From the NCBI GenBank assembly GCA_947502645.1, contig CANNAD010000001.1, positions 1,054,001-1,118,000 on the forward strand: a stretch of DNA of 64,000 bases, read 5' to 3'. Both the position numbers and the translations under genes were made by a program. Source of the DNA: an uncultured Micrococcaceae bacterium. Lineage in GTDB: Bacteria > Actinomycetota > Actinomycetes > Actinomycetales > Micrococcaceae. Each line of letters opens with the position of its first letter. Position 1 is the stretch's first letter. The notes under the pieces are model-generated. The model saw only the letters and a program-made list of their open reading frames with translations. It had not been told where the DNA came from and searched no databases. Positions 60,190 to 64,000 of this stretch are shown here, piece after piece.

Positions 60190-61847
60190 TAGACCAACCA
60201 CACCGCACGGTTCGGCTGCAGCGCATTGTCTGTAACGGCGTCGGGCTGGCTGGCCAGCAAAACCTCCGCCCCCGCAGGTAGCCGGACGGGACGCGTTCCC
60301 GCATTGACCACCAACGTCAGGTCACCGTTGCGGTAGGAGAGGACGCCGTCGGCTGGAGCATGCAGGCTGGTCCACGCAACTGTTCCCTGACCGAGTTTCC
60401 GTTCCGCCCGGATGCTCAATGCCTGCCGGTACAGCTCGTAGGTCGAGCTGTCCAAGCCCACCTGCTGATCGGCCGCGTACTTCGCGAAGCTGTCCGGTTG
60501 GGGAAGCCACGGGCTCGCGGCCTCAGGGTTCTCGGCAAACCCGTATCCGGGTGCAGCTCCTGTCCATGGGATCGGAACGCGGCAGCCGTCACGCCCAATC
60601 TCTTCGCCGTTCGTGCGGAAGAAGGCTGGATCCTGGCGGACCGAGGCATCGAGGGTTGTGTGCTCGGGCAAGCCCAGCTCGTCGCCCTGATAGATGTAGG
60701 CGGATCCGGGCAGCGCGAGCATCGTCAACGCCGCGGCACGTCCGCGAGCCAGTCCCAATTCCTCGTCCGGCTGCTCGTCCTCTGCGCTGATGCCCTTGGG
60801 GAACGTCGTCGGATCGGTAAGTCCGTAGCGGGTGCTGTGGCGGACGGTGTCGTGATTGGAAAGCACCCAGGTGGCAGGGGCGCCCACCTTTCCGGCTTCC
60901 TCGAGGGACTCGTTGATGCTCTCGGCCATGCGGACCGCATCCCAGCCGGCCAGAAGGAACCCGAAGTTGAACGCTTGCTGCATCTCGTCCGGGCGCACGT
61001 AGCGGAAGAGCCGCTCTGCCGGTTCCACCCACGCTTCGGCAACCAGCATGCGGTCGCCGTCGTACTCGGACAGCACCTTGTTCCAGTGTTGGTAGATTTC
61101 GTGGACACCCTCCTGATCGAAGTAGGGCGGAGTCTCAGCGTCGCTGCCCTCAACCATGCTGGTCTTCGCGTGCCAGTCCGGCAGGCCGTCGGCCTTGATC
61201 ATGCCGTGAGCGACGTCGATACGGAACCCGTCCACGCCCCGGTCCAGCCAGAACCTCAGGACAGACTCCATTTCGCTGTGGACCTCCGGGTTCTCCCAGT
61301 TCAGGTCCGGCTGGGAGGTGTCGAAGAGGTGCAGGTACCACTGGCCGTCCTGAACGCGCGTCCAGGCATTTCCGCCGAAGATTGACTGCCAGTTGTTCGG
61401 CGGCAGCGCGCCGCCCGGCCCCTTCCCGTCACGGAAAATGTAACGCTCACGCGCCGCGGATCCCGGGGTAGCGGTCAGCGCGTCCTGGAACCACTCGTGT
61501 TGATCAGAGGTATGGTTCGGCACCAAATCCACGATGACGCGGATGCCCATTGAGTGGGCCTCAGCGAGCATCGCGTCGAAGTCCTTCATACCCCCGAACA
61601 GCGGGTCCACCGCCCGGTAATCGGCGACGTCGTACCCGGCATCTGCCTGAGGGGAGAGGTAGAAGGGCGAGAGCCAGATCGCGTCCACGCCAAGCTGGCT
61701 CAGGTAGGGCAACCGGCTTCGTACACCCTGCAGGTCGCCCATCCCGTTGGCGTCCGCATCAGCGAAAGAACGAGGGTAAATCTGGTAAATGACGGCGTCT
61801 GCCCACCACTGATCGTGTTGGATTCTGGTGTTCTCTGCCAACGACAT
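60189..61847 (-). CDS. GH13 alpha-glucosidase (oligo-1,6-glucosidase type)
   Basis: 552 aa. Releases glucose from short alpha-glucans. GH13 motifs in order: DLVPNHTSDQHEW, GFRIDVAHG (nucleophile Asp), LVAEAWVEP (acid/base Glu) and LSNHDTVRH. YQIYPRSFADADANGMGDLQGVRSRLPYL marks the alpha-glucosidase subgroup. Cytosolic, no signal peptide. ATG 61847 with CAGGAG upstream is preferred over the longer frame to 61949. Confidence 0.94.
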   Translation of the reverse strand: MSLAENTRIQHDQWWADAVIYQIYPRSFADADANGMGDLQGVRSRLPYLSQLGVDAIWLSPFYLSPQADAGYDVADYRAVDPLFGGMKDFDAMLAEAHSMGIRVIVDLVPNHTSDQHEWFQDALTATPGSAARERYIFRDGKGPGGALPPNNWQSIFGGNAWTRVQDGQWYLHLFDTSQPDLNWENPEVHSEMESVLRFWLDRGVDGFRIDVAHGMIKADGLPDWHAKTSMVEGSDAETPPYFDQEGVHEIYQHWNKVLSEYDGDRMLVAEAWVEPAERLFRYVRPDEMQQAFNFGFLLAGWDAVRMAESINESLEEAGKVGAPATWVLSNHDTVRHSTRYGLTDPTTFPKGISAEDEQPDEELGLARGRAAALTMLALPGSAYIYQGDELGLPEHTTLDASVRQDPAFFRTNGEEIGRDGCRVPIPWTGAAPGYGFAENPEAASPWLPQPDSFAKYAADQQVGLDSSTYELYRQALSIRAERKLGQGTVAWTSLHAPADGVLSYRNGDLTLVVNAGTRPVRLPAGAEVLLASQPDAVTDNALQPNRAVWLV

Positions 61848-61948
61848 GGATGCTCCTGTTTCGTAGATAGCCACACCCACCTTAAGGCTTTCTGCGGCCA
61901 GGATCTTCCCGTGCGTGAATGGAATCACATGATGTGGCGTGGATCGCA

Positions 61949-61954
61949 TAGGCT
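61949..61954 (+). promoter_or_regulatory. Candidate leaderless -10 box of the histidine kinase
   Basis: TAGGCT, six bases, then ATA in the kinase frame at 61961. See the finding on a possible non-standard start. Confidence 0.5.
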
Positions 61955-62011
61955 GGGCGTATAGCTACGTTAACCAGACTCGGGAGAGCGCTCGAGGGCG
62001 CTCCCTTTGGT

Positions 62012-64000
62012 GTGCACATTTTCTTTGCCGCAGCTGTACTCGCGGCCGGTGCCGTTGGACGGGCAACTGATTTTTCCACAGGCGATCTGGGTCTGGTCTG
62101 GCCTGTTTCTGGGGTCAATATTCTGTGGCTCGCTTGGGCTTGGGAACGCAAACAGCAGCGGTACACCGCGCTCGTGGGCATACTCCTCGTTGTCACAGCG
62201 ATAAATGCGTTCACAAGTGTGCCGCCGGAAACGTCGCTCCTATTCGGTCTTGGCAACATGGTCCAGGCGTGGATTGCGTATGCAGCCTTCGGCAAGCTTC
62301 TGCCCGGCCGTACCCAACGGGCAACCGGCGATTTTTTCCTGCTGTCAGTAGCAGCCCTCGTGGGTGTGCTGGTGAGCGCATTCCTGGTGGCCGCCTTTTC
62401 GCTGGCCTCGGGAGACCCGCTCTCGCCCGAGCTCTACATGCAGTGGATCCTCAGCAACTTTGTGAGTATGAGCGCGATCGGCAGCGTGGGGCTCATCGCA
62501 GCCAGCATGTCGTCCGAGGACTTTCGGGACTCGTTCCCGGAGGACATCTGGGAACCGCTTGCGCTCGCGATCTTCACGGCGACTATCTACGCCATCGGTT
62601 TCGGTCAGACCATCTACCTGCCGATTGCCTTTCTGGCACTTCCTGCCTCGATCTGGGCCGGGCTGCGGTTCAGCCCCTTGTGGGCGATGGGGCACGCTCT
62701 CATATGCGGCGGCCTGCAGATTGTCATGACGTTGAACATGCGTGGCCCTTTCGGCTCCATAGAGTCGCCGTCCGCCGCGCACATTGCCCAGCTGTTCCTG
62801 TTCATCTCCTTCGCAGTGACAGCGGTTCTGACCCTCAACCGGGATGAGCAGAGCCGCACGATGTCGGAACTATCGGAGGCGCACCTCCGGGCCGAAACCG
62901 CCTCTCACCTTCGCGATATTGTCATCGCCAAGCTGAGTGCCGGCGTCATAGTCTGCGATGCTCACGGGCGTATCATCATGCAGAACAAGGCTTTTAGCCG
63001 GTGGATGGGCAAGGAAGTCCAGCTGGTCAGGGACATTTCCAAGTCCGTCCAGCTGCTCACGAGCGACGGCGAGAAATACCCCAAGTCACGGATGCCCATC
63101 CGGCGCGCGCTGCATGGAGAAGTCGTTAGCCGGGCAGAGATCAGCGTGGTGAAGCCCGATGGCAGTGTCCACCACTTTTATGTGGACGCTGAACCACTCA
63201 TGCTTCCGGGCGGCCCTGGTGCTGTGATCATTTACCACGACTACACGGACGAGCGGCGGCATCAGCAGGACCTGTCACGTTTTGCCTCAGTGGTTGCCCA
63301 TGACCTGACCAACCCTCTGGCGGTGTTTGACGGATGGCTGGAGATTCTGGAGGACCCGCAACTTTCTGCAGGAGAGCGTAAACGCAGCATCAAGCGGTTG
63401 CGCGGCGCGAGTGTGCGGATGCGAACCCTCATTCGTTCCCTCCTGACCTACAGCCTCGCCAAGGAGGACAAGGTGGTGGCGGCCAAGCTGCAGGTGGATG
63501 ACGTAGCAGCGAACATCATCGGGCTCCACGAGGGGCTGGCTGAAAGCCGCTATTCAGGTACCGATTTCACGGTCGACGCCGACTGCCAGATCATCGCGGG
63601 CCCGGACCTTTTCCAGCAGCTGATGGAGAATCTCATTGGGAATGCGGCCAAGTACGCCCATCCTGACCGGCCATCGGAAGTCATGATTGTTGCGGGACCA
63701 GCGGAGAAGGAGGGCTGGACGCGGATCATGGTCCGGGATAACGGCATCGGGATTCCGGAGGGCGAGTTGGACACGGTTTTCACCGAGTTCCACCGTTCTG
63801 CCAATGGTGTTTCGGTAGCTAGCGGGTCGGGTTTGGGACTATCGATCTGCCGTCGCATCGTGGAGAGCCATGGTGGGAGGATCAAGGTCACCAACCGGGC
63901 AGAGGGCGGGTGCGAGTTCTCCTTCACGATGCCGTCCAGCCCCGAAAGATTGCCCGCTCACGTCCGTTTCCCGCTCGAGGATGCCAAGACCGCGACCCGT
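62012..64000 (+). CDS. Membrane-sensor PAS histidine kinase, cut at window end
   Basis: At least 663 aa. About eight hydrophobic helices (residues 3-260, MASE1-like; STGDLGLVWPVSGVNILWLAWAWE) sense an unknown signal. A PAS domain follows (IVIAKLSAGVIVCDAHGRIIMQNKAFSRWMG, about 300-415), then the H-box with phosphoryl His at nucleotides 63299-63301 (VVAHDLTNPLAVF) and the ATPase domain (N box NLIGNAAKYAHP, G1 VRDNGIGIPEG, G2 GSGLGLSICRRIVESHGG). GTG 62012 is the first standard start, but coding continues in frame upstream to an ATA at 61961. The C-terminus and any partner regulator lie beyond the window. Confidence 0.88.
   Translation, partial: MHIFFAAAVLAAGAVGRATDFSTGDLGLVWPVSGVNILWLAWAWERKQQRYTALVGILLVVTAINAFTSVPPETSLLFGLGNMVQAWIAYAAFGKLLPGRTQRATGDFFLLSVAALVGVLVSAFLVAAFSLASGDPLSPELYMQWILSNFVSMSAIGSVGLIAASMSSEDFRDSFPEDIWEPLALAIFTATIYAIGFGQTIYLPIAFLALPASIWAGLRFSPLWAMGHALICGGLQIVMTLNMRGPFGSIESPSAAHIAQLFLFISFAVTAVLTLNRDEQSRTMSELSEAHLRAETASHLRDIVIAKLSAGVIVCDAHGRIIMQNKAFSRWMGKEVQLVRDISKSVQLLTSDGEKYPKSRMPIRRALHGEVVSRAEISVVKPDGSVHHFYVDAEPLMLPGGPGAVIIYHDYTDERRHQQDLSRFASVVAHDLTNPLAVFDGWLEILEDPQLSAGERKRSIKRLRGASVRMRTLIRSLLTYSLAKEDKVVAAKLQVDDVAANIIGLHEGLAESRYSGTDFTVDADCQIIAGPDLFQQLMENLIGNAAKYAHPDRPSEVMIVAGPAEKEGWTRIMVRDNGIGIPEGELDTVFTEFHRSANGVSVASGSGLGLSICRRIVESHGGRIKVTNRAEGGCEFSFTMPSSPERLPAHVRFPLEDAKTATR

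Follow-up and report, generated by a model that had tools for sequence, protein, structure and literature searches.

The window analysed here, a stretch of 64,000 nucleotides from a genome of 2.67 Mb, ends in a histidine kinase gene whose start poses a question: does translation begin at the frame's first standard start codon, GTG 62012, or 17 codons earlier, at an ATA codon that would form the 5' end of a leaderless mRNA? Leaderless AUA initiation was the best single reading of the kinase start, at about even odds (probability roughly 0.48). The window was compared with the genome of a second species in its genus (G001, hereafter the sister species), which is syntenic over the region; the syntenic region examined comprised the window and 9 kb beyond it. 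Genome-wide statements derive from pattern searches of both genomes and from retrieved stretches. The features of the gene and its start are as follows.

61949..61954, + strand: -10 element TAGGCT, whose first three bases (TAG, 61949-61951) double as the in-frame upstream stop.
61955..61960, + strand: six-base spacer GGGCGT from the -10 element to ATA, identical in the sister species.
61961..61963, + strand: ATA, proposed transcription start and putative start codon, conserved in the sister species.
61961..62011, + strand: extension of 17 codons ahead of the frame's first standard start; on the rival reading, a 51-nt leader.
61961..64000, + strand: histidine kinase (MASE1, PAS, HisKA, HATPase_c), 680 residues counted from ATA; its TAA stop at 64001-64003 lies just past the window.
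61982..62005, + strand: inverted repeat GGGAGAGCGCTCGAGGGCGCTCCC, a predicted hairpin.
61994..61998, + strand: GAGGG, Shine-Dalgarno-like, inside the predicted hairpin and ~13 nt before GTG 62012; conserved in the sister species.
62012..62014, + strand: GTG, the frame's first standard start codon and the rival start, aligned in both species.

The kinase frame is free of stops from ATA 61961 through GTG 62012 and holds no ATG, GTG or TTG between TAG 61949-61951 and GTG 62012, as the original prediction had stated; it had also placed the stop, TAGGCT, the six-base gap, ATA and the in-frame GTG correctly. Translation from ATA gives I-ATLTRLGRALEGAPFG-VHIFF, and the sequence preceding ATA is the promoter TAGGCTGGGCGT. 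Matches to MASE1, PAS_4, HisKA and HATPase_c each exceeded the Pfam cut-offs, placing the protein among the MASE1-containing sensor histidine kinases, with which it shares its domains in an ordinary order; unlike the other members, it is unusual solely at the gene start. A scan of genome contigs returned only a distant kinase. From GTG 62012, the hydrophobic stretch of helix 1 would span only ~16 residues with no Arg or Lys before it (residues read from the sequence, hydropathy computed).

The promoter geometry recurs in the region. TANNNT was found 6-7 nt before ATG or GTG in both species at 13 genes of the syntenic region besides the kinase, more than the at least seven leaderless-looking genes first proposed, and several of these 13 resemble the kinase in that the TAG of the -10 element also closes the frame upstream. 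A -10 element conserved at 6-7 nt preceded 12 of 206 conserved in-frame start codons and 16 of 5180 other codons (~0.3%), the kinase ATA itself being counted among the 16. The same spacing appears in published maps of actinobacterial promoters, averaging 6.3 nt in S. lividans (PMC8079986). The kinase has the conserved TANNNT 5-7 nt before its proposed coding sequence (TAGGCT, 6 nt) that marks actinobacterial leaderless genes, but not their AUG or GUG, carrying ATA in both species. The geometry and its conservation at the kinase are solid as features of the sequence.

The 21 bp TCGCATAGGCTGGGCGTATAG, covering the -10 element, the spacer and ATA, are identical between the kinase genes of the two species. 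The sister gene has the same ATA, again without ATG, GTG or TTG ahead of the aligned GTG, so that in two species of the genus the ATA is conserved with the next standard start 17 codons on. The proteins are 83% identical across the first 346 residues, the two N-terminal sequences being IGTLKRLARALEGAPSVVH and IATLTRLGRALEGAPFGVH. Elsewhere among 395 family genomes, the kinase turned up in a single further genus, with 32-41% identity. In the orthologue comparison that had been proposed, the sister species carries ATA, not ATG. In the homologues from the other genus (n = 20) the start codon precedes a conserved His by ~16-21 residues, often as ATG in MQAVAGRLAALSPATLH; this is close to where ATA lies and away from GTG 62012. 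In the window gene the distance to this His is 18 residues from ATA and one from GTG 62012. Both species, and 16 of the 20 homologous N-termini (read from the list of N-termini), also have a Pro upstream of the GTG, at the fourth residue ahead of this His. The homologue start positions and the shared Pro favour a start at or near ATA. As read from sequence, the case for ATA comprises promoter-like geometry, exact conservation, no standard start before GTG 62012 and homologue N-termini of matching length.

Whether the extension itself is coding received mixed evidence. It is ungapped and 40 of its 51 nucleotides are identical between the species (78%), a level reached by 11.5% of intergenic windows and by 44 of 61 coding windows. 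The sister extension aligned to the homologous N-termini better than shuffles did (P 0.016), whereas the window's own extension did not (P 0.46), and a profile comparison of the extension with the homologues gained a non-significant 3-5 bits. Substitutions fell 1/5/5 across the three codon positions, a distribution that differed from the kinase core (P 0.005) and from the 13 control N-termini (P 0.036). Of the 17 upstream residues, whose conservation the original prediction had proposed to compare, 12 are identical in the sister species, not above the null of 10.5 (P 0.22). Its description of the upstream sequence as coding-like was too strong, the 17 codons having poorer codon usage than all 13 leaderless control N-termini. 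Leaderless initiation at AUA, one of its two proposals, is partly supported: it has a promoter geometry conserved base for base and homologues that start near ATA, against a mixed coding signature and published leaderless mRNAs that begin with AUG or GUG only.

The strongest rival, a serious one that we put somewhat below an even chance, has the mRNA begin at A61961 and translation at GTG 62012. The intervening 51 nt would be a 5' leader, perhaps left over from an older leaderless start that lost its ATG in the common ancestor of the two species. The GTG is aligned in both species, the extension lacks a clear coding signature, and the rule that leaderless mRNAs begin with AUG or GUG (PMC3890552) also speaks for it. 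Leadered TAGNCT promoters with canonical starts are present in both genomes: a glutamine synthetase-like gene (L082) and a rhodanese-like gene (L066), both named by sequence reading, have a TAGNCT element and a leader, with a purine-rich site close to the canonical start. The GTG had been said to lack a good ribosome binding site; a conserved GAGGG does exist upstream, but its spacing of 13 nt is too long and it lies within the predicted hairpin. GTG 62012 is a possible but poor ribosome site. With a start there, the N-terminus would also be unusually short: the 20 homologues carry ~16-21 residues before the conserved His, ~15-20 more than it would have, and the Pro common to 16 of them would lie upstream of the coding sequence. 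On this reading only coincidence or a relic would explain why an in-frame AUN codon stands exactly six bases from the -10 element. A conserved structured leader was considered and rejected: the hairpin is no better than dinucleotide shuffles (z -1.0), and the conserved 20-nt block is not special because identical runs of 19-41 nt between the species occur in the kinase core too. Should GTG 62012 be the true start, the case would reduce to an ordinary leadered gene whose leader resembles a relic.

Re-initiation at AUA after a small upstream ORF, beginning at ATGATG (61930/61933) and ending at TAG 61962-61964 in an AUAG overlap, is very unlikely. Both species keep this ORF open, as MMWRGSHRLGV and as MMWCSSHRLGV, but its 3' half coincides with the -10 block, which accounts for the conservation there; no TANNNT element that could transcribe it was seen in 61880-61930, nor does a good ribosome site precede it. 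A sequencing error or a recent ATG-to-ATA mutation damaging the gene, the other explanation originally offered, would take only a single base change, but it has next to no probability and, barring the same error in both assemblies, is ruled out because ATA and its surroundings are identical in the independent genome of the second species, and the kinase is intact and 85% identical to the sister protein over its length.

Under leaderless AUA initiation, transcription from the TAGGCT promoter would take A61961 as its first nucleotide, and the kinase mRNA would begin AUAGCUACG. The 5'-terminal AUA would serve as the ribosome's start, presumably read by initiator tRNA through near-cognate pairing. 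The product would have 680 residues, of which the first 17 make up a short, Arg-containing stretch ahead of the first MASE1 membrane helix, and the weak start would hold an apparently orphan sensor kinase at a low level. That a leaderless bacterial mRNA is translated here from a 5'-terminal AUA, which different species would have retained as an intrinsic brake on a sensor kinase, is a tentative proposal to which we give slightly less than even odds.

Mitochondrial leaderless mRNAs offer one likeness, as AUA starts occur there at or near the 5' end, without a leader, as proposed for the kinase. In mitochondria a modified tRNA reads AUA as Met; the kinase gives no sign of such a changed code. 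With the leaderless mRNAs described in C. glutamicum (PMC3890552), S. lividans (PMC8079986) and M. tuberculosis (PMC9094748), the kinase shares a TANNNT about six bases before the coding sequence, here the proposed one, and the lack of a ribosome binding site. Unlike the known actinobacterial examples, its mRNA would begin with AUA: each of the 707 leaderless C. glutamicum mRNAs opens with AUG or GUG (PMC3890552), and those of S. lividans with ATG (67.8%) or GTG (32.2%) (PMC8079986); the way in which starts were called may have biased both sets. In E. coli, leaderless translation has been reported to need AUG, according to a paper that cites earlier work on the point (PMC5622118), and IF3 disfavours leaderless and non-canonical initiation alike (PMC2268962). 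The prior against a leaderless AUA start is considerable. Leadered AUA starts with extended Shine-Dalgarno sequences are already known from S. aureus (PMC13009471); a leaderless one would be new. In S. aureus infC, ccpN and citZ, the AUA start codon is conserved and weak, and it lowers expression (PMC13009471), as proposed for the kinase. At infC and two conserved new sites the extended Shine-Dalgarno sequence directs the start (PMC13009471), whereas the proposed kinase mRNA has no leader: no strong Shine-Dalgarno sequence of this type precedes the ATA, the promoter occupying that place.

Leaderless initiation is thought to require that a 5'-terminal AUG be recognised directly, with GUG as an alternative in actinobacteria. 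A 5'-terminal AUA that is conserved, if true, would widen this codon rule, would mean that a signalling gene is restrained by its start codon, and would point to genes whose starts are set too far downstream by gene finders.

Further cases were sought in both genomes. TAGNCT-N6-ATA occurred 14 times, and only the two kinase sites headed a long ORF. Among the sites examined in the TAGNCT-N6-ATA/ATY/CTG scans, the kinase was the only one with a convincing long ORF that lacked a canonical start close by; the apparent long ORFs behind ATC, ATT and CTG have canonical starts nearby or resemble chance frames. A candidate AUC start, TAGCCTGTGGCG-ATC before a PdtaS-like kinase (named by sequence reading) in both genomes, proved false: 30 aligned family members have a standard start (GTG, ATG or TTG) two codons before the ATC, giving (M/V/L)AIFTDPI. 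The refutation of this case by the family alignment means that the pattern alone proves nothing. The PdtaS-like gene (L128, L129) has in the window's genome a GTG start 7 nt after TAGCCT (GGTAGCCTCTAGCCTGTG) and may be leaderless there; relatives in other genera often have purine-rich sites.

Upstream, the kinase faces a divergent minus-strand gene for an alpha-amylase-family enzyme, and one further element lies close to the promoter.

61926..61936, no strand assigned: palindrome CACATGATGTG, centred ~30 bp upstream of the proposed transcription start and unchanged in the sister species.

This palindrome has one other copy per genome, in a non-orthologous place, and is a possible regulator site. 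Between the two divergent genes also lies an imperfect palindrome, TTCCCGTGCGTGAA (61908-61921), which is mostly kept in the sister species and could be an operator for the sugar gene. A 136-codon frame (61554-61964) runs antisense to the alpha-amylase-family gene and ends in a TAG that forms ATAG with the ATA; the terminal portion, beginning at ATGATG 61930, is also open in the sister species, and the frame as a whole is probably due to chance. Directly 3' of the kinase are two genes (L038:1073-3157, ~64073-66157 in window numbering) that are absent from the sister species, where synteny resumes at once. The first encodes a secreted-looking protein without a Pfam match, and the second looks like a fusion of a signal peptidase with an Ice_binding-like domain (PF11999).
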